A program made the translations under genes and the position numbers. Below the pieces are notes generated by a model. The model was not told the origin of the DNA and searched no databases. It saw only the letters and a list, made by a program, of their open reading frames with translations. From Streptomyces sp. RPA4-2 (GTDB taxonomy: Bacteria > Actinomycetota > Actinomycetes > Streptomycetales > Streptomycetaceae), in NCBI RefSeq assembly GCF_012273515.2, contig NZ_CP050975.2, forward strand, positions 8,990,001 through 9,054,000: a stretch of DNA of 64,000 nucleotides, read 5' to 3'. This document shows positions 6,284 through 56,971 of the stretch, one piece after another; positions within the stretch are counted from its first letter, which is position 1, and the number at the start of each line of letters is the position of its first letter.

Positions 6284-7321
6284 GGGGCCCCAGCAGGCGA
6301 ACCGGCAGACCACGCCATCGGCCGGTCCCGCGGCGGACTGACCACAAAGATCCACCTGGCCTCCGATGCCCAATGCCGGCCACTGGCCTTCGTGCTCACC
6401 GCCGGACAGGCCGGTGACGCACCCGCCTTCGATCACGTCATGGCCCGCCTTCGCGTTCCTCGACGGCGAGGACGGCCCCGCACCAGGCCGGACGTGGTCC
6501 TGGCCGATAAGGCGTACTCCTCCCGCGCGATCCGCGAGCGCCTGCGCAAGCGCGGTATCCGGGCGGTCATCCCCGTTCCAGCCGATCAACGCGGTCACCG
6601 GCTGCGGCGCGGCAGCCGGGGCGGCAGGCCACCCGCCTTCGACCGCGAGGCATACAAGCAGCGCAACACCGTCGAACGCTGCATCAACCGCTTGAAACAG
6701 TGGCGGGGCATCGCCACCCGCTACGAGAAGACCGCGACCATCTACCTGGCCGGACTCCACATCGCGGGCATCTTCCTCTGGTCAGCGCGGTGATCCAAAC
6801 GAAACGGCCTAGGTGAGTTGCTGGCCGATGACCTGGTGGTGGAGTGGCCCGTGAGTGGAGAGCGGATCGTGGGTCGCGACAACTTCGTGAGCATCAACGC
6901 GGAGTACCCGGAGGGGTGGTCGATCCGGGTGCTGCGGATCGTGGCGGACGGCGCGGCAGTGGTCTCTGAGGTGGAGGTCCCGCACGACGCCATGGGGGTC
7001 CACCGCGTGGCGTCGTTCTGGACCGTTCGGGACGGAAAGATCGTTGGTGGGCGGGAGTACTGGACCGAGCTGGGTACGGACCTGTCGCCGGAATGGCGGG
7101 CTGCGTACGTGCAGCGGATGTAGACCCCTCGCGTTGGCCGTCCGTGCGCCTGTCGTAAGCCGGCTGCCGGTCCTACGGTGCCCGTTTGGGCAGGGACGGT
7201 GGCCCCCGACTGCGGCTGGTTGTGGTCGCGGAGCAGGATGCTGGACCGCGGTCGTGCCGGGGGTGCGGTGGGCCGTTAGCCTCGCCGTTTCGGTTGGGGT
7301 GCGGCTGAGGGTTGGGTAGAA

Positions 7322-45792: not shown

Positions 45793-46527
45793 TCAGATGG
45801 CGGTGGTGCCGCCGTCGGCGACGAGTTCCATGCCGTTGACGTAGCTGGAGTCGTCGGAGGCGAGGAAGAGGGCGGCGGTGGCGATCTCGTCGGGGCGGCC
45901 CATCTGGCCGCGGGGGATGAGGGACTCGAACTGGCGCTTGGTGGCCTCGTCGAAGAGTTCTGCCTGCTTGGCGGTGGCGACCTGGCCGGGGGTCAGGACG
46001 TTGACGCGGATACGGCGGTCCTTGAGTTCGTTGAGCCAGATTCGGGCCCAGGCCTGCTGGACGGCCTTGCTGCCGGCGTAGACGCTCCAGCCGGGGAAGG
46101 CGCCGAGGGAGGCGTTGGAGCCGGTCATGAGGATGGAGCCGCCGTCGTTGAAGAGCGGAAGGGCCTTCTGGACGGTGAACAGGGTGCCGCGGGCGTTGAG
46201 CCCGAACCAGGTGTCGAACTGGGTCTCGGTGATCTCGCCGAGCGGGGCGGGCTCGCCCCCTCCGGCGCTGGCCCACAGCACGTCGAGGCTGCCCTTCTCC
46301 CGCTTGACGGTGTCGTACAGGCGGTCCAGGTCGTCCAGGTCGGAGGCGTCGCCCTGAACACCGGTGACGTTGCGGCCTATCTGCTGCACGGCCTCGTCCA
46401 GGGCCTCCTGGCGGCGGCCGGTGATGAAGACGTGCGCTCCCTCGTCGACGAACAGCTTCGCCCCGGCCAGCGCCATGCCGCTGGTGCCGCCGGTGATAAC
46501 TGCCACCTTGCCGTCGAGCTTCCCCAT
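45793..46527 (-). CDS. Short-chain dehydrogenase/reductase (SDR)
   Basis: The 244-residue classical SDR has the cofactor turn TGGTSGMALAGAK near residue 12, the NAG-equivalent ASAGG, a catalytic Ser (TGSNAS), the YxxxK motif (YAGSKAVQQ) and the C-terminal NGMELVADGG. NNAG is replaced by WASAGGG. The ATG at 46527 has GGGAG five bases upstream; the GTG at 46533 does not. Substrate unknown. It is transcribed away from the TetR gene at 46671 and is probably its target. Confidence 0.92.
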   Translation of the reverse strand: MGKLDGKVAVITGGTSGMALAGAKLFVDEGAHVFITGRRQEALDEAVQQIGRNVTGVQGDASDLDDLDRLYDTVKREKGSLDVLWASAGGGEPAPLGEITETQFDTWFGLNARGTLFTVQKALPLFNDGGSILMTGSNASLGAFPGWSVYAGSKAVQQAWARIWLNELKDRRIRVNVLTPGQVATAKQAELFDEATKRQFESLIPRGQMGRPDEIATAALFLASDDSSYVNGMELVADGGTTAI

Positions 46528-46576
46528 CGTCACTCCCTTGAGTCGGTGGTGCCGTGTGCACCTGGGATGACGGTGT

Positions 46577-46639
46577 TATGTACACCGCCCTGTGTGCTTA
46601 CGGTATGGGGTGGGCGGCCGGGACGCAACTATGTACACC
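46577..46639. promoter_or_regulatory. TATGTACACC direct repeats between SDR and TetR genes
   Basis: The 10-mer TATGTACACC occurs at 46577-46586 and again at 46630-46639, 53 bp apart, in the 143-bp divergent region. GTGTGC occurs near the first. They are candidate TetR-binding sites controlling both directions. Confidence 0.5.
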
Positions 46640-46670
46640 AGTCGTTACCCAGCGGCGGTACGATGGAGCC

Positions 46671-47282
46671 ATGACGGAGTTGGAGAAGGGCCCCACGGGC
46701 CGCCGCCGCGGCCGGGGCGCCCGCGAGCGCATCATCAGCGCGTCCCAGCAGCTGTTCCGCGAGCAGGGCATCAACCGCACCGGCATGGACCAGCTCTGTG
46801 CGGCGGCCACGGTGTCCAAGCGCACGGCCTACCAGCACTTCACCGGCAAGGACGAACTCGTCGCCGAGTACCTGCGCCGGTTCGACCCCTCCGTTCTGTC
46901 CGGCGTGTTCGACCGCACCGATCTCACGCCGCGCGAACGGCTCCTCGCCGCCTTCGACATCCCTGCCACCACGCCCATGTGCCCCTACATCGCCGCCGCC
47001 GTCGAACTCCACGACCCCGAGCACCCCGCGTCCCAGTACGCACGCGACTACAAGAAAGCCGTCGCCGCGCGGCTCGCCGACACCGCCCGCGAAGCCGGCG
47101 CCGCCGACCCTGAACAGCTCGGCGAGCAACTTGCGCTGCTCATCGACGGCGCAGCGGCACGCACCCGGGTCCTCAACGCCGACGCCTTCCCCGCCGCCGC
47201 CGCCATCGCGGCCGTCCTCATCGACAACGCCATCCCGGCCCCAGCCGGCGATGACCGGCGGCGGGAGGAAGTGTCGAGTTGA
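46671..47282 (+). CDS. TetR-family regulator
   Basis: The 203-residue protein has GARERIISASQQLFREQGINRTGMDQLCAAATVSKRTAYQHFTGKDELVAEYL, a complete TetR helix-turn-helix (residues about 20-68). The C-terminal part (MCPYIAAAVELHDPEHPASQYARDYKKAVAARLADTAREAGA) fits regulators of SDR or oxidoreductase genes. ATG 46671 gives MTELEKG; an ATG at 46662 is in frame. The stop overlaps a short downstream frame. Confidence 0.9.
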   Translation: MTELEKGPTGRRRGRGARERIISASQQLFREQGINRTGMDQLCAAATVSKRTAYQHFTGKDELVAEYLRRFDPSVLSGVFDRTDLTPRERLLAAFDIPATTPMCPYIAAAVELHDPEHPASQYARDYKKAVAARLADTAREAGAADPEQLGEQLALLIDGAAARTRVLNADAFPAAAAIAAVLIDNAIPAPAGDDRRREEVSS

Positions 47283-47524
47283 CTTGGCACTCCGCGGCCG
47301 GGCTGGACGCGCTGCCGGTCGCGTGGCTGCGCCGGCTGGTACGCGACACCAGCCGCCCGGCACCTGGCCCGGACCTGCGGGCGTTTACGGAACTGGCCGC
47401 CCGCTTTCTGAAGGCCGCAGCAGAAGCCGCTGGGGAGACCGGCGACCCCCGGAGGTTTCAGGAGTTCGAGGACGTCATCCCGGCCCAGGGCGCTGACACG
47501 CCGCCGGTTCGAACAGACGGCTGA
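47279..47524 (+). CDS. Short downstream frame, hypothetical (81 aa)
   Basis: A TTG at 47279 overlaps the TetR stop codon and opens MTWHSAAGLDALPVAWLRRLVRDTSRPAPGP, continuing as a mixed helix (LRAFTELAARFLKAAAEAAG). The overlap suggests translational coupling, but the codon is weak and I know no relative. A long hairpin follows 55 bp after the stop. Confidence 0.35.
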   Translation: MTWHSAAGLDALPVAWLRRLVRDTSRPAPGPDLRAFTELAARFLKAAAEAAGETGDPRRFQEFEDVIPAQGADTPPVRTDG

Positions 47525-47579
47525 TCACACGCGTCCGTACGCGGTGGCGCGTGAAAAACTCGTACGCAACTGGCGGGTT

Positions 47580-47632
47580 CTGAAGATGTGGGTGGCCCGC
47601 CAGCGACGCTGGCGAGCCACCCACATCTTCAG
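47580..47632. repeat. Long near-perfect hairpin (26-bp arms, 1-base loop)
   Basis: The arm from 47580 (CTGAAGATGTGGGTGGCCCG...) pairs with its complement ending at 47632 with 25 of 26 matches and a single A between them. It lies 16 bp outside the left end of the Tn3-type transposon. As a terminator it would be unusually long; it could also be a remnant of a mobile element. Confidence 0.7.
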
Positions 47633-47648
47633 AAAAACGAGCCGGAGA

Positions 47649-47713
47649 GGGGTATCGCCGAGGTGAACCCAAAAGGGGCCATGGGATGATCTTGAAGCTG
47701 TGAGGGCCCGGCC
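47649..47713 (+). repeat. Left terminal inverted repeat of the Tn3-type transposon
   Basis: It begins GGGGTATCGCCGAGGTGAAC and ends in GGCCCGGCC. It pairs with 53996-54060 with three mismatches in 65 bp. It is longer than the usual 38-40 bp, although the outer 40 bp alone would suffice. Confidence 0.85.
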
Positions 47714-47778
47714 CGTCACCCGTCGGCTCAGTGTCGTTGGTGGTGATGTTGACTGTGGTCTGGGGCCTGGGGTGGGTT

Positions 47779-47928
47779 GTGACCTCGATCGAACGGACCG
47801 CTTATCCGCAGTTCAAGCGGCTGATCACCGCGCATGAGCTGCATCTGTTCTTCTCACCGACTCGCGAGGAGCTGGAGTGGGCCGCCGACCGTACGGACAG
47901 CGATGAGCATCTGCTGGCACTGGCCGGC
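47779..47928 (+). pseudogene. tnpA: N-terminal fragment of a Tn3-family transposase (DUF4158)
   Basis: From GTG 47779 the frame reads VTSIERTAYPQFKRLITAHELHLFFSPTREELEWAADRTDSDEHLLALA. This is the opening of the DUF4158 domain of actinobacterial Tn3-type transposases. After about 50 of nearly 1000 residues the sequence changes to unrelated DNA. The catalytic DDE domain is absent from the whole element. Confidence 0.8.
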
Positions 47929-48419
47929 CACGGGAAGCCCCAGGCGTATCCGGAGGCCGTCGAAACAACGCGATCGGTCACGTCCCGTGGTGGCCGGAGG
48001 AAGCACCCGGCCCGGTGGCGGGCCGGCAGGAGTGGGAGCGCGGCGCTCTCAACGCGCTTGCTCGAAGCCGGGGTTGGCAGCCCGAGTGGCCGGCCCGGCG
48101 GACCGGTTTCGCCGCCCAGCGCGACGTCCTGTGAGTTCTCCAGAATCTTGCTGAGGTCCTTCACCACCGCCAGCGCCGTCAGCATGAGTCTCCTCGACTT
48201 CGACCAGGCCGCAGAATGGTCGGACAAAACGAGGACACTTCAGGAATTCCGAAGCTACGTCACAGGTTGGCCGAGCACGCCAACGAGGGAGAAACCCCAG
48301 GCCAGGGACTCTGGGCCCCAGCAGGAGTCACGGGAACTCACGGGATGTCGCACAGAGCCCCGTGAGTTCAGAGAAACTGAAGCCTGTTCAGTGGGAACTC
48401 GGGGGTCGGTCCGTGTGCA
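47929..48419. other. No recognisable gene
   Basis: The frame from the tnpA fragment stays open to 48492, but its sequence (Ser/Arg/Thr-rich) carries no motif and looks non-coding. It lies between the transposase stump and a hypothetical gene within the transposon. Confidence 0.4.
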
Positions 48420-48779
48420 TCAGGTGGGGTCGCCCGTGGGTTCGGCGGGAACGCGGGGGTGTGCTTCGGTCGTGACCTCGGCATCGATCTGAGCTACTTC
48501 TTCGTCGCCGCCGTATTCGAGGAAGGCGTACTCGTCATCGAGTTCGGCGAGCCGTGCTGTCAGGGGCAGCTCGTGCCCGTAGCGCTGGTTGATCCGGAAA
48601 GTGAGCTCCCAAGGTTTCAGCTCACCGGCCATCATGCGTCGTGCGAGCTCTCGCGCGGCGGCTTCTCGGCCGGCCTCACTGGCAATCGGATAGAGAATGA
48701 GGCCGAGCTCATCGAGCGCTTCGGGGAGCAAGTCGTGCACATCGTAGTCCGCCTCTGCGCGTGTGCAGGCTGCCAGCAC
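48420..48779 (-). CDS. Hypothetical acidic protein, possibly N-terminally truncated
   Basis: From GTG 48779 the 119-residue product reads VLAACTRAEADYDVHDLLPEALDELGLILYPIASEAGREAAARELARRMMAGELKPWELTFRINQRYGHELPLTARLAELDDEYAFLEYGGDEE. It is helical and acidic, with no signal peptide or membrane segment, like the small cytosolic proteins encoded beside toxins or transport genes. The frame continues upstream into the azlC remnant on the other strand, so the original N-terminus may be missing. Function unknown. Confidence 0.5.
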   Translation of the reverse strand: MLAACTRAEADYDVHDLLPEALDELGLILYPIASEAGREAAARELARRMMAGELKPWELTFRINQRYGHELPLTARLAELDDEYAFLEYGGDEEVAQIDAEVTTEAHPRVPAEPTGDPT

Positions 48780-48799
48780 CCTAACGACGTGGGGAGCGA

Positions 48800-49155
48800 T
48801 TGAGGTCGGCGGCTGGCCTGGGGGCGTGCGTGGTGCTCGCGCTCGCCCAACCCGACCTGCCCCGGCAGCGCGCCGCGTACTGGGCCTGCGGGGTCGGAGT
48901 ACTGGTCTGCTGGCCGAGCGGCGCGCTCGTCGGCGCGCTGGCGGCAACCTCATTCACGACACCGACGCGCTGGGGCTGGACGCCGTGTTCCCCGCGGTGA
49001 TCCTGCCGGCCCTGCGGGAGCGGGGTGTGCGGCGGGCGACGCTGACCGGGGCGGCGATCGCGCTGGCCACCACCCCCTTCCTGCCGGCCGGGCTGCCGGA
49101 GCTGCTGGCGCTCGCCGGGATGGCGCTCAACCCGATCACCGCGGAGGCCATCTGA
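48800..49155 (+). pseudogene. azlC: AzlC-type branched-chain amino acid exporter subunit, truncated and frameshifted
   Basis: The C-terminal half of an AzlC permease is spread over two frames. First comes LGACVVLALAQPDLPRQRAAYWACGVGVLVCWPSGALVGALA. Then, after a shift near 48945, come NLIHDTDALGLDAVFPAVILPALRERGVRRATLTGAAIALATTPFLPAGLPELLALAGMA. The first ~100 residues are missing. AzlC works with AzlD in amino-acid export; the azlD gene follows with a 1-bp overlap and is intact. Confidence 0.8.
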
Positions 49156-49478
49156 TGCCGTACCCCTTCGCCATGCTGGCCGCGCTGCTGGCACTGGCCG
49201 CCGGTACCTTCGCGTTCCGCCTGGTCGGGCCGTTGCTGTGGGCCAGAGTCGCCTTGCCGCCGCGCGCCGAGGACTTGCTCAAGACCGCGGCCATCGTGCT
49301 GCTGGCCGCGCTGGTGGCGACCGCGTCGCTGACAACGGGGCACGGCGCGGCGGGGATCGCCCGGCCGGCCGGAGTGGTGGTCGGCGGGCTGCTGGCGGCG
49401 CGCAAGGCACCCTTCCTGCTGGTGGTGCTGGCCGCAGCGGCCACCACGGCGCTGCTGCGCCTCGCCCGCGTCAACTGA
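49155..49478 (+). CDS. azlD: AzlD-type branched-chain amino acid transport protein
   Basis: The 107-residue membrane protein (MPYPFAMLAALLALAAGTFAFRLVGPLLW ... EDLLKTAAIVLLAALVATASL ... AAGIARPAGVVVGGLLAARKAPFLLVVLAAAATTALLR) has four hydrophobic segments and the RLxGP motif of AzlD. ATG overlaps the azlC stop (TGATG). Since its partner azlC is broken here, it is probably without function unless a second AzlC exists elsewhere. Confidence 0.88.
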   Translation: MPYPFAMLAALLALAAGTFAFRLVGPLLWARVALPPRAEDLLKTAAIVLLAALVATASLTTGHGAAGIARPAGVVVGGLLAARKAPFLLVVLAAAATTALLRLARVN

Positions 49479-49571
49479 CCCGCCGGCGCCGGGCACACGA
49501 GGAACGTACGCGGCCGTCGATGACCGGGAACCTGCCCCGGCGCGGCCCTCCGCACGGCCGGGGGCACCGGT

Positions 49572-50909
49572 TCAGGTCGGCCGGCCGGCCGGGGCACCGA
49601 GGGTGGTGTCATCCACAGGCTTATCGGGGCTCGGGTACGCCGCCTTCGGTCCGGGGACCGTCACCAGCGTCGTGCCCAGCGCCAGGCCCAGCGCGGGGAG
49701 CAGCGGGAACCGGCCGTCGTACGCGAAGCCGTGCACGGCGAAGCGGCTCAAAGCGGCGACGCTCACCGCCAGGCCGAACCAGAGCGCCCAGGACCGGCGC
49801 GGGCCGGCGTCCGGCCGTGTCCGCTCGTAAAGGAGCGTCAGCCAGTGTTCCAGCGGCCGCAGCGCCAGCAGCACCCCCGCCATGGCAACGCCGAGCACCA
49901 GCAGCCACGGCGCCCGTAGTTCCCACCATGCCGCGGACCCGAACGCGGGCTCGGGCGCGAGCCCGGTCAGATAGAACACGGCGGCGACGACCAGCACCGG
50001 CAGCATGTGCCAGAGGTAGAGCGTCATACTGGCGCCGCCCACCGGGCGCACCAGCCGCCATACCCGCGCCCGGTCCAGAAGCCGCCGCATCGCGGGCCCG
50101 GCCAGCAGGCACAGGCCGATCTCGGCCACCACCCACGCCAGCATGGCCGCCGACGGCGGATCGGTGTTGCCGGGGCTCTGCCCGGTCACCAGGATCAGGC
50201 TGACCGGGAAAGGCCCGACGGTGATCAGCGCGGCGAAGGCGAGTCCGCCTGCCGCCGCCATCACGGCCGGCACCGGCCGACGCCCCGTCAGCAGGCCGTC
50301 GCGCCAGCAGAAGCCCAACTGATAGGCCACACCCCACACGAGCACATAGTTGAGCAGTCCGACGTACGGCGTCCGCGCTGTCTCCACCAGGGTGTCGGCT
50401 GCCAGCGCCACAGCGCCCATCGCCAGCGGGACGAGGGCTCCCCAGCGTCGGTGCGCCGCGTGCAGCGCCGGAGTCAGGGCGCTCAGGAGCAGATACACCG
50501 GAAGGAACCAGAACTGCATCCCCATCGCCCAGCCCACCAGCGCGAGGGTGTCCGGGTCCACGCCGACAGCCGAGCAGATCCCGACGGCCAGCAGCACCAG
50601 CGCGCTGTACACGGCCGCCGGAAGAAGCAGCCGCAGAGCCCGCCGTCTCACCCACCCGCCGGCCGTACCGCCTGAAGCGCGGACCCGCGACCAGGAGCCG
50701 CCCGCGGCGTGGCCCCCGGCCAGGAAGAACAGCGGCATGATCTGGAATCCCAGGGTCAGCCACTGGGTCCAGTGGATGGTCGCCAGCAGTTCCGGCGCGG
50801 TGATCTCCCCACCGGGCCCCCGCACCAGAGCGGTGATCAGCCAGTGGCCGAGTACGACCAGGACGATCGCCCACGCACGCAAGAAGTCGACGTACCGGTC
50901 TCTGCTCAT
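49572..50909 (-). CDS. Acyltransferase family membrane protein (Acyl_transf_3)
   Basis: The 445-residue protein begins RDRYVDFLRAWAIVLVVLGHWLITALV, containing the conserved Arg/His pair of acyltransferase-3 proteins. It has about ten membrane helices (for example IMPLFFLAGGHAAGGS, MQFWFLPVYLLLSALTP, VGGASMTLYLWHMLPVLVVAAVFYL). Such enzymes O-acylate sugars or other extracytoplasmic molecules. Length is normal and the gene is intact. It is cargo of the Tn3-type transposon. Confidence 0.9.
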   Translation of the reverse strand: MSRDRYVDFLRAWAIVLVVLGHWLITALVRGPGGEITAPELLATIHWTQWLTLGFQIMPLFFLAGGHAAGGSWSRVRASGGTAGGWVRRRALRLLLPAAVYSALVLLAVGICSAVGVDPDTLALVGWAMGMQFWFLPVYLLLSALTPALHAAHRRWGALVPLAMGAVALAADTLVETARTPYVGLLNYVLVWGVAYQLGFCWRDGLLTGRRPVPAVMAAAGGLAFAALITVGPFPVSLILVTGQSPGNTDPPSAAMLAWVVAEIGLCLLAGPAMRRLLDRARVWRLVRPVGGASMTLYLWHMLPVLVVAAVFYLTGLAPEPAFGSAAWWELRAPWLLVLGVAMAGVLLALRPLEHWLTLLYERTRPDAGPRRSWALWFGLAVSVAALSRFAVHGFAYDGRFPLLPALGLALGTTLVTVPGPKAAYPSPDKPVDDTTLGAPAGRPT

Positions 50910-51238
50910 ACGGCGTCATGCTGCCGCAGCGCGGGCGCGCCGCACAACCTCTCCGAGGCGGCCACGCGGATCCGGCCGCGGGGAGGGTGGCACCACGCCA
51001 ATTTTGGGCATGACCCTGCCAACGGAAGGGGTCGCCCCGGCATGCTTCGTAGCGGGTCCATCCGGCCCTCAACCCCAGGGCCGCCAACCGCGCCTGCGAT
51101 CGTAAGTCCGGGGCTGTCTAGGCCGGCGACGAGCGCATCACAGGCCGCGCTGACAACATCGCTTGCGGGAATCTCGCCCACGCTCCAGAGAGTGGCGCGG
51201 TCCTGCAGTTCGCTGGCTGCTGCTTCGGGCGACGGCAT
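50906..51238 (-). pseudogene. Fragment of an uncharacterised protein
   Basis: ATG 51238 opens MPSPEAAASELQDRATLWSVGEIPASDVVSAACDALVAGLDSPGLTIA, which looks like the N-terminus of a small helical Streptomyces protein. After residue 48 the composition changes to Gly/Pro/Arg-rich and the frame runs to the start of the acyltransferase. The join at about 51095 is probably a deletion scar. Confidence 0.4.
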
Positions 51239-51281
51239 CCGCCTATGATCCCTTCACTCTCGGGTCCTGGTCGAACAGGTT

Positions 51282-52871
51282 TCACCGGTGCTGCAGCTCG
51301 GCAGCTTGTTCCAGCAGGGCCCGCGCGGAGTCTGCGTAACGCATCGCGGTCTTCTCATCGAGCCCGAAGACCTCGGCGAGGTGAAGCGGATCAGGGCCTT
51401 GGATTATGGCCTCTTCGAGGCGCCGGTCGACGCGGAGCCTCTCCAGGGTCGCGGTCTGCCCGCGCATCGGCGCGCTGATCCAGTGGTTGCTGGCGCGGCT
51501 GGTCTTGGTGGCGGTCTGGTTGTTGATCAGCAGGTGGAGGTTCGCGGTGTTAGGCCACCGTTTCCTTCGGTGTTCCAGCCAGTCCAGCAGCAGTTTCAGA
51601 GTGAGATCGTCGAGCGGGCGGACGCGTCCGGCGATGGTCATCCGCCGGTTCCCGATGTCGACGTCGTCGAGCTTGAGGGTGCCGATCTGCGCGACCCGGG
51701 CGGCATGGACCGCCACGAGGGCGAGGGCGAGGACGAGGCGTGCTGCCGGCGTAGTGGCCGCCGCGACCGATCGGTTGACCTGTTCGGGGATGAGCGGTTG
51801 GAGCACGGCGTACTGGTACTGCCCGACTTTGATCCGGCTGGTGGGATTGCGGAAGATGAGGCTGGCCCGCTTGGCCCACGTAAACAGCGAACGGAGGGCG
51901 ACAAGCTGTTCATGACGGTGACGGCCGTGCAAGGTCTTGAGATAAGCGAGGACCTCGTCGCGGGTCACTTCCCGCAGGTGGTCGCATCGGTCTGACCACT
52001 CCAGCAGTGCCGGGCGGACCCGGTTGAGGTAGAGCCAGACCGTGCCTGGTTGCCGTGGGAGGCTGCGAGGGCCGCCATCGTGCAGGGTCCGGGTCCACCT
52101 TTCGACCTCTGCGCGGATGCCGGGCGCGAGGCCCTCCAGCCTCGCGGCGAGCCAGCGTTCGAAGGACGGTTCGCTGTCGTCCTCGAAGATCCCCATCTCC
52201 TCCAGGACCGTGGTGGTGTGGCCGACCGGCAGATCGAGCGCCCGGAGCGGGGTGAACACCTCGCTGTGCCGGATGAGGTCGCCCTCGACGTAGCCGGTGA
52301 GGACAACGGCCAGGCCGCGGTTGACGGCGAAGCGGATAGTGCCTCCCCAACCCCGGGCTTCGGCGAGTCGGTAGGCGAGGTATTTCGCCCAAGCCAGCCA
52401 CGGGTTGGACAAGTCAACGGTCTTCGGGTCGAATCGTTGGTAGTTCCGGCTGACCTGCGCGAAGAGCGGTAGCTGAGTCGATCGGGGACTCGGGCGCCAA
52501 GCGGGAGACGGCGGCGGCTTTCGAGGGGCTCCCACTCGGCCGCCGTGACGCGCGGGACTCAGCGCGGAGCCCCTCCGGTAGTGCAGGCCCGCGAGGAAGA
52601 GCTGATGGTGCTGGACCGCTTGGAGCCATGGAGTCATCACCTCGCCGCTGACGGTGGCCTTGCCCGTGGTGGTCTTCACGTTGAGGCGGGCTTGGCAGGA
52701 GCACAAACGGCAGTAGTCGCGCTTGAGTGGTTGGTTCCGATGACAGCCGGCACATACGCCTGCCTCATGATTCCGGCTGAAAAAGTAGCAGGCGGGGCAG
52801 AACTGACCACGGCAATTTCCCCAGGCCAGGCAGCTCTCGCAGGAGTGGGCGGACTTGCGCAACGGGGTCAC
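51282..52871 (-). CDS. Tyrosine-recombinase-like protein with N-terminal zinc-knuckle cluster
   Basis: The 529-residue protein starts (GTG 52871) with five closely spaced CxxC-type motifs: CESC, CRGQFCPAC, CAGC and CRLCSC within residues 11-60, probably binding zinc. A core-binding domain follows (SDRCDHLREVTRDEVLAYLKTLHGRHRHEQLVALRSLFTWAKRASLI). The recombinase fold has Arg in VHAARVAQIGTLKLDDVDI and a candidate Tyr in EKTAMRYADSARALL. The usual HxxR box is not obvious. It starts 4 bp after the XRE gene, so it is the last gene of a three-gene operon. Confidence 0.75.
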   Translation of the reverse strand: MTPLRKSAHSCESCLAWGNCRGQFCPACYFFSRNHEAGVCAGCHRNQPLKRDYCRLCSCQARLNVKTTTGKATVSGEVMTPWLQAVQHHQLFLAGLHYRRGSALSPARHGGRVGAPRKPPPSPAWRPSPRSTQLPLFAQVSRNYQRFDPKTVDLSNPWLAWAKYLAYRLAEARGWGGTIRFAVNRGLAVVLTGYVEGDLIRHSEVFTPLRALDLPVGHTTTVLEEMGIFEDDSEPSFERWLAARLEGLAPGIRAEVERWTRTLHDGGPRSLPRQPGTVWLYLNRVRPALLEWSDRCDHLREVTRDEVLAYLKTLHGRHRHEQLVALRSLFTWAKRASLIFRNPTSRIKVGQYQYAVLQPLIPEQVNRSVAAATTPAARLVLALALVAVHAARVAQIGTLKLDDVDIGNRRMTIAGRVRPLDDLTLKLLLDWLEHRRKRWPNTANLHLLINNQTATKTSRASNHWISAPMRGQTATLERLRVDRRLEEAIIQGPDPLHLAEVFGLDEKTAMRYADSARALLEQAAELQHR

Positions 52872-52875
52872 CTAT

Positions 52876-53205
52876 TCACTCCGGCGGCAGCGATCGACCG
52901 TCGCGCCGCTTAGGGATCACCTTCGGCGCGACAGTCCCTGCACCGACCGCTGCTCGTTCTCTCTCCTCTTGCCCCGGGCTGCTGACCTTCTCTGGCTCGG
53001 GAATCAGCAGGTCGCCGATCTCGCAGCCGAGGACCACGCAGATGACGTCCAGGTCCTCCAGCTTGAGAGAGACGAGCTGGCCGGACCAAAGCCCGGACAT
53101 CTTCCCGGCCGAGATCACCAGGCCGCGCTCCGCGAGGTTTCGCTGGAGCTCGGACGCCTTCCAGATGCCCTTGTTCGCGGCGGTCAGCCGCAGGTTCCAC
53201 CTCAT
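52876..53205 (-). CDS. XRE-family helix-turn-helix protein between two recombinases
   Basis: The 109-residue protein opens MRWNLRLTAANKGIWKASELQRNLAERGLVISAGKMSGLWSGQLVSLKLEDLDVICVVLGCEIGDLLIPEPE, a Cro/C1-type DNA-binding domain. Its ATG overlaps the stop of the upstream recombinase (ATGA), and its stop lies 4 bp before the next gene. It may be a regulator or a directionality partner of the recombinases. The tail is charged and disordered. Confidence 0.85.
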   Translation of the reverse strand: MRWNLRLTAANKGIWKASELQRNLAERGLVISAGKMSGLWSGQLVSLKLEDLDVICVVLGCEIGDLLIPEPEKVSSPGQEERERAAVGAGTVAPKVIPKRRDGRSLPPE

Positions 53206-53846
53206 CGGACCAGTCCTTCCAGCCGCTTCGCGGCCCGTTCCATTCTGGCGACCCAGGCATCCTCGACCCGGGTCTGCTGCACGTGGATATAGCGCATCGT
53301 CGTGGCGATCCAGGAGTGTCCCAAGACCTCCTGGATCGCGAGCAAGTCCAAGCCATTTCGGTAGAGTTGGGACGCGCAGAAGTGCCGAAGGACGTGCGGG
53401 GTCAGCTTCTCCCCCCACCCCGGCAGATGCGCTTTGGTCGCGTTCTTGAGGCCGTCGCGCAGTGAGTCGTCGCCGACCCGGCGCGAGGAACCGCCGGTGT
53501 TCTTGCGCTCGGAGGGAAACAGCGGGGCGCCGGGGCGGGTGTGGTCGTCGTCGAACTGGCCCCAGACGTCCTCGATGAACCACCGAAGGGTCCGGTCGGC
53601 GCCGTTGATCAGCGGCACCATCCGCTCGCGCGGACCCGAGCCGCCGGCGCCCTTGCCGTGGCGAACGTGGAGTTTGCCGAAGCGGCCCAGGTCCCATTTG
53701 ATGTCGTCCAGGTCGAGCCCGCATGCCTCGCTCACCCGCAGGCCGACCTGGGACAACAGCTTCGAGGCGGTGTAGTTCCTGGCGGTTGGGGCGAACTTGC
53801 GGCAGGTCGCTAGTTCGCCGCCCCAGCCGGTGAACAGTGTCCCGAC
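53202..53846 (-). pseudogene. Tyrosine recombinase, catalytic half only
   Basis: The catalytic residues are all present: Arg in SQVGLRVSEACGLDLDD, HxxR in TPHVLRHFCASQL, His in EVLGHSWIATT and Tyr in MRYIHVQQ. The reading frame opens only at 53846, behind a TAG stop, with LFTGWGGELATCRKFAPTARNYTASKLL. The N-terminal core-binding domain (about 150 residues) is missing. It is the first gene of a recombinase-XRE-recombinase operon near the right end of the transposon; translation could begin only at an internal TTG. Confidence 0.8.
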
Positions 53847-53995
53847 CTAGGAGTCCGGGGCCTACCGCACTGGGACGACGTCCGTAGCCCTACGATCCGA
53901 AGGCGCGGGTGACCAGGGGAGCAGCGAAGGCCTCCGGCGTTTCCCAGGCCGGAAGCCCCTTGGTTTTGAAGGCATCAAGCCTGTTCGCCGAGTTA

Positions 53996-54060
53996 GGCCG
54001 GGCCTTCACAGCTTCAAGATCATTCCATGGCCCCTTTTGGGCTCACCTCGGCGATACCCC
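53996..54060 (-). repeat. Right terminal inverted repeat of the Tn3-type transposon
   Basis: Read in reverse it begins GGGGTATCGCCGAGGTGAGC. It matches the left repeat at 62 of 65 positions and is followed directly by the duplicated GGAGA. The 360 bp from here to 54430 hold no gene I recognise. Confidence 0.85.
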
Positions 54061-54431
54061 GGAGACTTGCCGCCCCCTCATCCACTCCACCGCGGCGCTC
54101 TCCTCGCGGGGCAGGACGGCGTTGACTCCCGACGCTACGAACGGCAGACCGTCGGTGAACGGCTCTGCTCCGACGGCAGCGTGATCAGCCGACTTGAGCC
54201 GCGTCCGCAGCACGTACTTCCAGTCGGTCTCAGGTGCTTCGGGGTCCCCTCAGACAACTGCCGGCCGAAGAACAGAACCGGCTCAGAGGTCAGCCACAAC
54301 AGCACGACTCCGTCAGGCCATTTCACTCTTCAGCATGATCTGGCGCGGAACCCTGGGCGTTCACGCGCGGGAGGAAGTGCTTCTTAACGCTGCTGTGACC
54401 GGCGCGGGTGCACGGGTCTGCGGTATTGGCC

Positions 54432-54860
54432 TCAGGCGGGATTTTTCTGGTTTTCGATGTATTCCTTGATGGCGGCGAGCGGGGCGTCCCCGCACGAGGC
54501 GGCGAAGTAGGACGGCGACCAGAAGTGCTCACCCCACAGATACTTGCGGATGTGGCCGGGGAACTCCTGCCGCAGGCGACGGGCGGAGACACCCTTGAGG
54601 GAGCCTACGAGCCGGGAGATGGCGACCTTGGGCGGGTAGTGCACGAGCAGGTGGACGTGATCGGGTTCGCCGTTGAACTCCCGCAGCTCCGCGCCGAAGT
54701 CGGTGCACACGTCGCGCATGACCTCTTCGCAGCGCCGAAGGATCTCGTCGGTGAATGGTCCGCGCCGATATTTGGGGGTGAAGACCAAATGCGCATGGAG
54801 GGTGTGGACGACGCTACGACCCCTGCGGATATCGGGGTTTGGCTCTCAGCGTGGTGACAT
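54432..54860 (-). pseudogene. tnpA: IS200/IS605 transposase TnpA with an early stop codon
   Basis: From ATG 54860 the sequence reads M-S-P-R-stop-E-P-N-P-D-I-R-R-G-R-S-V-V-H. The TGA at 54846-54848 most likely replaced TGG (Trp). The rest is a normal Y1 transposase: VFTPKYRRGPFTDEILRRCEEVMRDVC, the HUH motif in DHVHLLVHYPP, WGEHFWSPSYF, and the catalytic Tyr in AIKEYIENQ. A shorter product from TTG 54788 would lack the first strand. Confidence 0.8.
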
Positions 54861-55751
54861 GGATCAATGTTGCGGTTACGTCCATGAAGATCGTGACGCA
54901 GGTCAAACTCATGCCGGATGCCGTGCAGGCATCCGCGCTTGAGCGCACCCTGAGCACGGTCAATGACGCCGCGAACTGGGTGTCGGAGGTGGCGTTCGAG
55001 CACGGCGTGCCGCGTGAGTACGAGCTGCGCAAGCACACCTACGCCGAACTCAAAGCCCGTGGGCTGGGAGCGCAGGCCGCGCAGCACGTCACCAAGAAGG
55101 TGCGCGACTCGTACACCACGCTCAAGGCCAGCATCCGTGCCGGGAACCTCGGCAAGGAAGGCTCCAGGCGTCGCCGCAAGGCCGAGTCCAAGCCGATCGC
55201 GTTCCGGCCCCAGGCCGCGCAGCCGTATGACGACCGGTGTTTGAGCCGGCAGTACGGTCAGCGGACCGTGTCCATCTGGACCGTGGACGGCCGGGTCAAG
55301 AACGTCTCATTCGTGTGCTCCCCGGACACGCTCAAGGTGCTCCAGGCGCACCGGCAGGGCGAATCCGACCTGGTCGAGCGCGACGGCGTGTTCTACCTCG
55401 TCGCCACCTGTGACGTGCCCGAGGCGCAGCAGTACGAGCCGGACGGCTTCATCGGCGTGGACCTCGGCATCGGGAACATCGCCACCGCCTCCACCGGCTA
55501 CCTCGCCGCCGGGCGGGGACTCAACCGGTACCGCAAGCGACAGCTTGCCCTGCGGGCCAAGCTCCAGAAGAAGCGCACCAAGAGCGCCAAGCGGCGGCTC
55601 AAGGCCCGTGCCCGCACAGAGGCGCGGCACGCCGCCAACCAGAATCACATCATCTCCAAGACGATCGTGACCGAGGCTGAATGAGGTTCCCCCTGCCGGT
55701 CGGACAGCTTGATACTGGGACGGATGGTCCCGGAGGAAGCAGTCACAGGTA

Positions 55752-56057
55752 GTGAGCGGCAAGAGCAACATGAGTAAGCGGTACACGGCCGAGTTCAAGC
55801 GGGACGCGGTCGCCTTGGCGTTGTCCTCGGAGAAGACGGTCACCGAGGTCGCGAGGGATCTGGGTGTGAGTCCGGAAGGGCTGCGGGGGTGGGTGAAGCA
55901 GGCGAAGGTCGACCGCGGTGAGGGGCCTGCCGGGGCTTTGACCACTGCGGAGCGTGAGGAGCTGGTCCGGCTGCGGCGGAAGGTTCGCGAGCAGGAGGCC
56001 ACGATCGAGGTTCTGGGAAAAGCGACCGCCTTCTTCGCTCGGGACAAGATGAGGTAG
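55752..56057 (+). CDS. IS3-family transposase OrfA
   Basis: The 101-residue protein has a helix-turn-helix (RYTAEFKRDAVALALSSEKTVTEVARDLGVSPEGLRGWVKQAK) and a leucine-zipper-like tail (REELVRLRRKVREQEATIEVLGKATAFFA). It binds the element's ends. OrfB starts 6 bp after its stop in the -1 phase, so a fused OrfAB by frameshifting is possible, although I see no classic slippery run. GTG 55752 or ATG 55770 may be the start. Confidence 0.9.
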   Translation: MSGKSNMSKRYTAEFKRDAVALALSSEKTVTEVARDLGVSPEGLRGWVKQAKVDRGEGPAGALTTAEREELVRLRRKVREQEATIEVLGKATAFFARDKMR

Positions 56058-56062
56058 ACACC

Positions 56063-56971
56063 GTGGCACGGTGTCGTTTCATCGATGCGGAGAAGGCATC
56101 GGAGGGTAATCCTGCAGGTCACAGCGTTGCTTTTCTGTGCCGTGTGCTGGGAGTGCCCCGTTCCACCTACTACGCGCACAGGGCGTCACGGCGGGCCCGG
56201 ACGGTGCGGGAGCGGGCCGAGGAGGTGCTGGTGGGCGAGATCCGGGTGCTTCACGCCGGATCTCGCGGTGCCTACGGGGCCCCGCGGGTCCACGCCGCCC
56301 TGCGGCGGGCCGGGCGGGTGGTGAACTCCAAGAAGGTCGAGCGGCTGATGCGCAAGCATCGGATCGTCGGGATCACCCGCCGCCGGCGGCGGGGCCTGAC
56401 CCGGCAGGCGAAGCGGGCGGTGTTCGCGCTCGACCTGATCGGCCGGGATTTCACGGCGCCCCGGCCCGGGATGCGGCTCGTCGGCGACATGACTGAACTC
56501 AGTACGCTGGAAGGGAAGTTGTATCTGGCGACCTGTATCGATCTCGCGACGCGGGAGGTGGTCGGCTGGGCGATGGCCGACCATCATCGCGCCGAACTGC
56601 CGGTCGCCGCCTTGCGGATGGCGGCCGGGCGTGGCGGCCTGGAGCAGGGTTGCGTCATGCATACGGATCGCGGCAGCGAGTACACGAGTGACGAATTCCG
56701 CAGCGAAATACGCAAGTTGCGCATGAGGCAGTCGATGGGGCGTGTCGGCTCTTGTTACGATAATGCCGCCGCGGAAAGCTGGTTCGCCATCCTGAAAGCG
56801 GAGATCGGGACGACCATGTGGGAGACCCGCGAGGCCGCCCGGGCCGACGTTTTCCGCTACGTCGAGGTCGAGTACAACCGCAGCCGGCTCCGTCGGCACC
56901 CCGACTACGGGTACGTCACCCCGCTCGAAACGAGATCCTTGCTCAGGCAGAACCTCGTCCCGGCAGCGTAA
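56063..56971 (+). CDS. IS3-family transposase OrfB (DDE integrase core)
   Basis: The 302-residue protein has VLGVPRSTYYAHRA, RGAYGAPRVHAALR, and the rve core: Asp in RLVGDMTELSTLEGKLYLA, Asp in VMHTDRGSEYTSDEF, and Glu in CYDNAAAESWFAILKAEI. It closes with YVEVEYNRSRLRRHPDYGYVTPLE. It is complete and probably functional together with OrfA. Confidence 0.95.
   Translation: MARCRFIDAEKASEGNPAGHSVAFLCRVLGVPRSTYYAHRASRRARTVRERAEEVLVGEIRVLHAGSRGAYGAPRVHAALRRAGRVVNSKKVERLMRKHRIVGITRRRRRGLTRQAKRAVFALDLIGRDFTAPRPGMRLVGDMTELSTLEGKLYLATCIDLATREVVGWAMADHHRAELPVAALRMAAGRGGLEQGCVMHTDRGSEYTSDEFRSEIRKLRMRQSMGRVGSCYDNAAAESWFAILKAEIGTTMWETREAARADVFRYVEVEYNRSRLRRHPDYGYVTPLETRSLLRQNLVPAA

Follow-up and report, generated by a model that had tools for sequence, protein, structure and literature searches.

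Tyrosine recombinases serve as resolvases in some relatives of Tn3, such as TnpI in Tn4430 and TnpS/T in Tn4651, and the ends of Tn3-family transposons are themselves the target of IS4321/IS5075 (IS1111/IS110 group), which insert within the terminal repeat of Tn21-type ends by means of an RNA-guided DEDD transposase. Both systems bear on the locus described here, a unit at positions 47649-54060 of a 64,000-nucleotide stretch of the genome of Streptomyces sp. RPA4-2 (contig NZ_CP050975.2, positions 8,990,001 to 9,054,000; hereafter the window), in which two tyrosine recombinase genes and an XRE-type gene lie between Tn3-type ends. Although tyrosine recombinases are found within Tn3-type ends here as in Tn4430 and Tn4651, in those two transposons they are the transposon's own resolution system, whereas in the window they belong to a separate mobile element. 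This element appears to share with IS4321/IS5075 the use of Tn3-family transposon ends as targets, but it differs in carrying tyrosine recombinases, in lying 2 bp outside the repeat and in occurring at several types of tip. The overall best explanation, to which we assign a probability of roughly 0.8, is that the unit is a non-autonomous, decayed member of the Tn3 family that encloses remnants of an element targeting Tn3 tips.

In gene arrangement, the recombinase element recalls the Tn554-type transposons, in which a typical (~350 aa) and a long tyrosine recombinase are adjacent; the copy of the element at locus L050 (NZ_CP108865.1) encodes proteins of 359 and 532 aa. According to the available part of PMC3414803 (Van Houdt et al. 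2012), actinobacterial Tn554-related transposons carry one long (611-828 aa) and one typical recombinase, with their targets left open, whereas the long partner here has ~530 aa. SCP1, which is listed in that part, is not among the matches listed in our searches (60 of 114 and 45 of 89). Tn554 is site-directed and inserts without target duplication (the latter according to the title of a reference in the available part of PMC10214605), as is proposed for the recombinase element, but the Tn554 attachment site is not the target here, its place being taken by Tn3 tips or group II introns. Tn554-type transposons have a TnpC, apparently replaced in the present element by the XRE/HTH_26 protein that stands between its recombinases. 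The same part of PMC10214605 distinguishes five groups among the prokaryotic elements that carry tyrosine recombinases, and it gives a 6-bp footprint for the strand-biased circularizing elements (SEs) and the Tn554-related elements. As far as described there, SEs, GInts and RIT elements are integrative and have two or three recombinase genes, as here, and SEs have inverted-repeat ends and a preferred target; however, the SE gene set intA-tfp-intB-srap is not that of our element, as judged by annotation only. At one of their ends SEs also leave a 6-bp footprint that varies, in contrast to the present element, whose right end is conserved up to unrelated DNA, an exactness to be read with the fact that the copies with distinct flanks were found by that exact pattern. 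The available part of PMC8138268 does not mention 'Tn3', and our literature searches on elements of this kind, on tyrosine recombinases with Tn3 ends and on elements in intron domain VI, with subscription journals mostly outside their coverage, listed no report of such targeting.

The unit is bounded by terminal inverted repeats of the Tn3 type at 47649-47713 (plus strand, starting with GGGG) and, as established by comparison of the arms, at 53996-54060 (minus strand); the two are identical at 62 of 65 bases and are flanked by the 5-bp sequence GGAGA at 47644-47648 and 54061-54065. The inner sequence of the right end occupies 53903-53995, and locus L044 is 91% identical over 53903-54066. A 27-bp piece of the end sequence, with up to three mismatches allowed, has two matches in the window and none in 100 shuffles, and the two 65-bp arms are the only matches in the 9.86-Mb single-contig genome itself, while the 65-bp end is matched in 73 of 295 genomes of the genus, its own counted. 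An empty site was found at locus L241 in the same-genus genome G193, where the left flank (46502-47648) aligns to 357-1505 at 91% identity and the right flank (from 54061) aligns from 1501, the flanks sharing one GGAGA. In two further genomes (L244 and L240) the match to the right flank begins at the same base as in L241, with the left flank altered or short. Because both flanks are joined at L241 by a single GGAGA, 47649-54060 is an insertion with a 5-bp duplication, and a single transposition, delimited by the two ends, brought the unit to this place. A preliminary description, made from the window alone, had already claimed 65-bp inverted ends and a real transposition with GGAGA flanks; both claims are borne out, as the ends are not unrelated repeats and GGAGA at the empty site is single rather than tandem.

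With its GGGG-type repeats, its 5-bp duplication and the DUF4158 start of its TnpA, the shell resembles Tn3-family transposons with a serine resolvase; it differs from them in having no usable TnpA or resolvase and in enclosing other elements. The intact TnpA of ~1000 aa is reduced to codons 1-64 (47731-47922, plus strand), which are 91% identical to TnpA of locus L040 and match DUF4158 with an E value of 7e-4, below the gathering score; the N-terminus of a Tn3-type transposase noted earlier at the left end is thus confirmed. The resolution system, for its part, is reduced to the C-terminal remnant of a serine resolvase (47923-47966, plus strand), recognised by eye against L032, L033 and L052, the last of which matches 47906-47966 at 82%. 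As tnpA' is directly followed by bases that resemble the last resolvase codons, an internal deletion fused tnpA' to 'tnpR. The search with the 65-bp end that the preliminary description had proposed recovers intact relatives in the genus: at L033 the same ends lie ~7.45 kb apart, with a TnpA of 1084 aa (DDE_Tnp_Tn3 and DUF4158), a serine resolvase (Pfam PF00239, E = 1.2e-24) and a matching 5-bp duplication, TAGAA, seen by eye on both sides, and L040 has the same ends and a full TnpA of 1089 aa with both domains. The serine resolvase of L032 is 87% identical to that of L033. Since transposase and resolvase of the unit are remnants, either TnpA would have been supplied from elsewhere or the genes would have decayed after arrival. 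Mini Tn3 derivatives of 0.7-0.9 kb also occur, at L046 (5377-6061, in reverse orientation) and at L221 (0.9 kb); in that of L046, tnpA' is fused to 'tnpR, similar to the left part of the unit.

The two tyrosine recombinase genes and the XRE-type gene within the shell are remnants of a separate mobile element with sharp ends of its own. In BLAST comparisons with plasmids and the collected loci, segments 48154-48784 and 51104-53848 were both found on a Streptomyces plasmid that lacks the azlD/acyltransferase block separating them in the window, and parts of them occur on further plasmids. At L050 the short recombinase (359 aa) comes first, followed by an XRE-type protein of 109 aa, the long recombinase of 532 aa and a protein of 171 aa; the left boundary of the element is GANNN-CCGTGRGTTC and its right boundary GAACTCACGGGATGTCGCACA, further genes being optional. 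In four plasmid copies GAACTCACGGGATGTCGCACA is followed by unrelated DNA, and the window alone has a left end there. The last 20 bases of the right end occur exactly at 21 places in 18 of the 295 same-genus genomes, the window included. The 20 other exact right ends, in 17 of 294 other genomes, provide 17 distinct informative flanks (two repeat the flank of another copy and one has a single flanking base), and among all exact right ends only that of the window is directly followed by a left end (GAGCC-CCGTGAGTTC). Thirteen right-end loci with few or no recombinase genes were examined, and a plausible left end was seen only in L080 and L082.

When genome contigs were scanned with alignment A3 of the short recombinase, 128 relatives were recovered; the 80 that were kept correspond to 79 loci, which belong to Streptomyces, Kitasatospora, Actinacidiphila, Nocardia, Nonomuraea, Pseudonocardia and other Actinomycetota. 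For the long recombinase, 8,000 candidates were scored, of which 1,206 are relatives at E <= 0.001. Seven assembly contigs of 3.2-3.6 kb (L126, L132, L142, L143, L150, L156 and L161) consist almost entirely of one element, which would be expected of repeats present in several copies, and none has a terminal overlap that would indicate a circle. Loci L061 and L064 (genomes G075 and G175) share the right flank GCGTAGTCGGAGCAG and differ in the element interior, so that a preferred site may have been used twice. A distant set of recombinase, HTH and long protein on the Nocardioides plasmid pNOCA01 (L260, 3371-6631) is flanked by Tad pilus genes, and the target there therefore probably differs.

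Intact copies of the element are located next to Tn3-family transposons of several lineages, 2 bp outside the tip. The subterminal motif and the arm were used to search 88 oriented loci (79 + 9) for left ends, with at most two candidates per locus, and 52 loci gave 55 candidates, 46 of which have the form arm-NNN-TC-NN and nine another form. After removal of L107, which contains a run of N, and of one member of the duplicate pair L084/L108, 44 distinct ends were left; 40 of them have, exactly 2 bp further out, a sequence that starts with GGGG, GGCC or CGG[CG], the misses being L099, L103, L141 and L154. Such tip starts have a background rate of 4.8% in the same loci, and the control, 39 distinct right flanks, has 0, 0, 2, 7, 3 and 2 of them at offsets 0-5. 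As the tip criterion was formed by inspecting the first left ends, the binomial value for the rule is descriptive only; among the distinct left ends found later, 16 of 19 fit the rule noted earlier (6-8 bp, then GGGG or GGCC), the exceptions being L099, L103 and L141. Three further left ends (L088, L096 and L101) are tip-like by eye and were left out of the 44. At least six types of tip sequence lie beside elements, and the contig of L098 has a second left end (offset 4955) at another Tn3-type tip, which suggests repeated use of Tn3 ends in one region. The element left end in the window itself has no tip beside it.

Several observations indicate that these tips are real Tn3 ends. The type A tip, GGGGTATCGCCGAGG, is the end family of the window unit, and in the A-like loci L101 and L111 TnpA begins 83 and 115 bp inside the tip. 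Tip types CGGGTGTGAGTAGT and GGCCCTGTTCTCG also occur as inverted pairs with 5-bp duplications (TACGT, GCGCC, GACAC and GTCAC), the matching duplications having been read by eye at L217, L218, L220 and L221; none was seen at L219. A Tn3 transposase domain is present in L217, L218, L219 and L081 and a resolvase domain in L052. At L081 (GGGGGCTGAGG) a distant Tn3 transposase lies 88 bp inside the tip, at L149 (GGGGTCCCGG) TnpA is matched at 28% identity, and at L114 and L130 (CGGCCTCGG) there are weak resolvase matches (27-29%); for others, GGGGTGCCGGTAAGAA and GGCCCCGG among them, no supporting gene was seen. TnpA or a resolvase lies 56-165 bp inside the tip in L052, L081, L102, L111, L119, L137 and L157.

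The adjacency of element and tip could arise in other ways, and the neighbouring sequences bear on the order of events. If the tip-like sequence were part of the recombinase element, the rule would describe no more than a conserved end, and the almost constant distance between tip-like sequence and arm agrees with this; however, there are at least six different tip sequences, several have TnpA or a resolvase just inside them, the same tips occur elsewhere as ordinary Tn3 inverted pairs, and the element left end in the window lacks an adjoining tip, which together make this explanation very improbable. Adjacency alone is symmetric, and Tn3 transposons might instead prefer to insert beside the left end of the element, the element itself not choosing tips. 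In agreement with this, none of the tested loci has a complete Tn3 transposon whose occupied tip goes with a clean duplication, but several unrelated Tn3 tip types would all need to have hit the same base, and some sister elements lie in group II introns, with both flanks intron-like. Moreover, the right flank of the L052 element is 99.6% identical over 4,923 bp to the plasmid NZ_CP108542.1, in which a tip of the same type plus TC runs straight into TCCGCAGAGCG with no element, whereas L052 reads tip, TA, element, TCCGCAGAGCG; here, then, such a tip adjoins the host bases found at L052 although no element is present. At L050 the 2 bp left of the element and the right flank read GGCACACAACC, compared with GGCGTACAACC in the uninterrupted tnpA gene of NZ_CP108498.1; no unoccupied site was found for the L051 flank. 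On this evidence we regard a preference of Tn3 transposons for the element as improbable.

A number of points nevertheless weigh against targeting of Tn3 tips by the element. No left end was obtained under the model in 36 of the 88 loci, and the right-flank control exceeds the 4.8% background at offset 3 (7/39), where the matches look by eye like host sequence with chance GG runs. Homologues of TnpA/TnpR lie within 3 kb in 14 of 43 flanks on the left and in 9 of 43 on the right, where that of L098 is counted twice; as the gene content of the two sides differs little, the rule rests on tip position, not on gene density. In the comparison of L052 with NZ_CP108542.1 the second of the 2 bp differs (TA vs TC), and because the Tn3 parts are 78% identical and the host parts 99.6%, NZ_CP108542.1 represents an unoccupied junction and no strict ancestor. 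The agreement at L050 extends to 2 bp only, which has a chance of 1 in 16, and a loose comparison of L053 with NZ_CP108499.1 agrees at one of the two. The adjacent Tn3 copies are mostly remnant-like, and among 27 loci with an adjacent tip a far end with a matching tip scored above shuffles only in L046; the far end of L152 is also above shuffles, its partner lacking a terminal tip. When 12 loci were extended to ~12-25 kb, L128, a weak candidate, scored above shuffles and L052 slightly so, and the far-end test on the extension of L053 itself (L225) was without success. None of the far-end tests, those of L046 and L128 included, gave a clean duplication, and they speak neither for nor against the proposed order of insertion. 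Finally, no circular form of the element was detected, nine short contigs having no terminal overlap.

Inside the shell, the left part (48003-48354, plus strand) is the right-hand end of one element, designated element 1, including in its left part the 3' end of an epimerase-type cargo gene; it is 96.6% identical to L051 (9938-10289) and 71-75% identical to L050, L052 and L053, and it ends with the conserved terminus GAACTCACGGGATGTCGCACA (48334-48354, plus strand) shared by the element copies. Directly abutting it is the left terminus of element 2, GAGCC followed by CCGTGAGTTC (48355-48369, plus strand); the piece 48355-48784 is 88.6% identical to L050. The fourth gene of element 2, encoding a 171-aa hypothetical protein in L050, is split: its 3' part (48420-48784, minus strand) and, by comparison with L050, its 5' part (51104-51238, minus strand) are separated by a 2.3-kb block (48785-51103), whereas L050 is continuous at 6447/6448 except for a 2-bp overlap. 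The block has no match in L050-L053 and contains azlD (49155-49478, plus strand), an acyltransferase gene (49572-50909, minus strand) and a short 5'-truncated fragment of azlC (Pfam E = 0.0043, below the cut-off). Further right, on the minus strand, are the long recombinase gene (51282-52871; 529 aa, full length relative to L050 and 79.8% identical to it in DNA), an intact XRE-type (HTH_26) gene of 109 aa (52876-53205) and the short recombinase gene (53205-53848), which lacks residues 1-136 and has two in-frame TAG codons; its DNA alignment to L050 ends at 53848, and the protein match reaches 53870. The long recombinase matches Phage_integrase only below the cut-off, has by eye a Cys-rich N-terminus and is 98% identical to a protein of another genome (P0035). 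A 1-kb query across the joints of the unit gave only partial matches, in 17 of 198 other genomes. Of the gene content listed in the preliminary description, AzlD, the acyltransferase, the HTH_26 gene and the two recombinase genes are present, with azlC being a truncated fragment and the short recombinase broken. The core recombination site suggested near 53850 was not seen there: 53848 is where the short recombinase gene is cut off, and the site-specific junction lies at 48354/48355.

At this junction the right and left ends of the element are joined with no extra base, the sequence on the left being 96.6% identical to L051 and that on the right closest to L050, and we read the interior as remnants of two tandem elements. 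The exact joint would also be produced if one excised circle had entered the Tn3 shell after being opened at another point, and in L051 the epimerase cargo lies between short recombinase and right end, so that a single permuted element would give the same gene order. However, the pieces right of the joint are 79.8-91.7% identical to L050 as against 70.5-88.6% to L051, and 48355-48784 has no match in L051, whereas the left piece is 96.6% identical to it, which points to two different elements; a circle opened inside the short recombinase gene would in addition require an unrelated second event. We therefore consider a single circle unlikely, without being negligible, relative to a tandem pair. 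The location of the operon between Tn3 ends had also raised the question whether its tyrosine recombinases took over from the serine resolvase and now resolve the cointegrates of the unit, like TnpI of Tn4430 or TnpS/T of Tn4651, or whether they are a second element inside it. The answer lies with the second element: the operon has its own ends and is found by itself on plasmids and in the genomes of many actinobacteria, a serine resolvase is present in the Tn3 relatives L033 and L032, which share the ends of the unit, a remnant of such a resolvase is fused to tnpA' in the window itself, and the short recombinase is broken. Replacement of the resolvase is accordingly rejected as hardly tenable, and because the operon is a separate element, Tn4430 and Tn4651 are unsuitable for comparison. 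The description of the unit as carrying a recombinase operon instead of its transposase and resolvase holds as regards the loss of the transposase; the resolvase is not wholly absent.

Not all copies of the element lie beside Tn3 tips. In L139, L140, L164 and L170 the TC of the left end is replaced, and the left end adjoins sequence resembling domain V of group II introns. Rfam supports a group II intron in L140 and L164 only, of seven loci searched. When the flanks of L164 are joined, two stable hairpins like domains V and VI are restored (z -4.9), and continuous intron-like sequences across this junction occur in L266 (same genome, 79%) and in L263 (the genome of L151, 81%), for which Rfam gave nothing above the gathering score. 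L168 has the same end form as the intron group, with unclear flanks. Of the 74 short recombinases placed on a tree, the 33 labelled as Tn3-tip copies fall in both the Streptomyces and the mainly Streptosporangiaceae branches, and the four labelled as intron copies (L168 included) at two places of the mainly Streptosporangiaceae branch.

By what seems the most likely mechanism, the element would excise as a circle whose joined ends resemble 48334-48369, and the recombinases would then take a Tn3 tip and its neighbouring bases as the target half-site, with crossover ~2 bp outside the tip. The Tn3 repeat would thereby be left intact, no target duplication would be formed, and each new Tn3 insertion would offer a fresh target. 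The element copies inside the shell would have had a Tn3 end on each side when the shell moved, or may have been enclosed by later rearrangement. More generally, we lean towards the view that elements with two tyrosine recombinases form a family that specialises in the ends of other mobile elements, mostly Tn3 tips of unrelated lineages and in other cases domain VI of group II introns. Tips with little in common except their outermost bases would be read by a general rule, possibly with the help of Tn3 transposase bound to its end; this wider interpretation seems to us somewhat better than an even bet.

Beyond the unit, a second, diverged right end of the recombinase element is present in the same genome (L094, G000:C1:8901749-8901885), with no recombinase genes within 8 kb around it. 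Just outside the left Tn3 end, at 47578-47634, there is a strong 28-bp inverted repeat, possibly a transcription terminator, of which an altered form is found at the empty site L241. Right of the unit, at 54432-56971, IS200/IS605-like and IS3-like transposase reading frames were recognised by eye.

Elements that land on the ends of other transposons obtain harmless and constantly renewed targets. If the targeting of Tn3 tips proposed here is correct, it would represent a second, mechanistically different solution beside that of the RNA-guided IS4321/IS5075, the best-known case, and the element would provide a test system for a tyrosine recombinase that reads dissimilar targets. It would also help to explain why genomes and plasmids of actinobacteria have recombinase genes next to Tn3 ends, and it would caution against taking every such recombinase for a resolvase.

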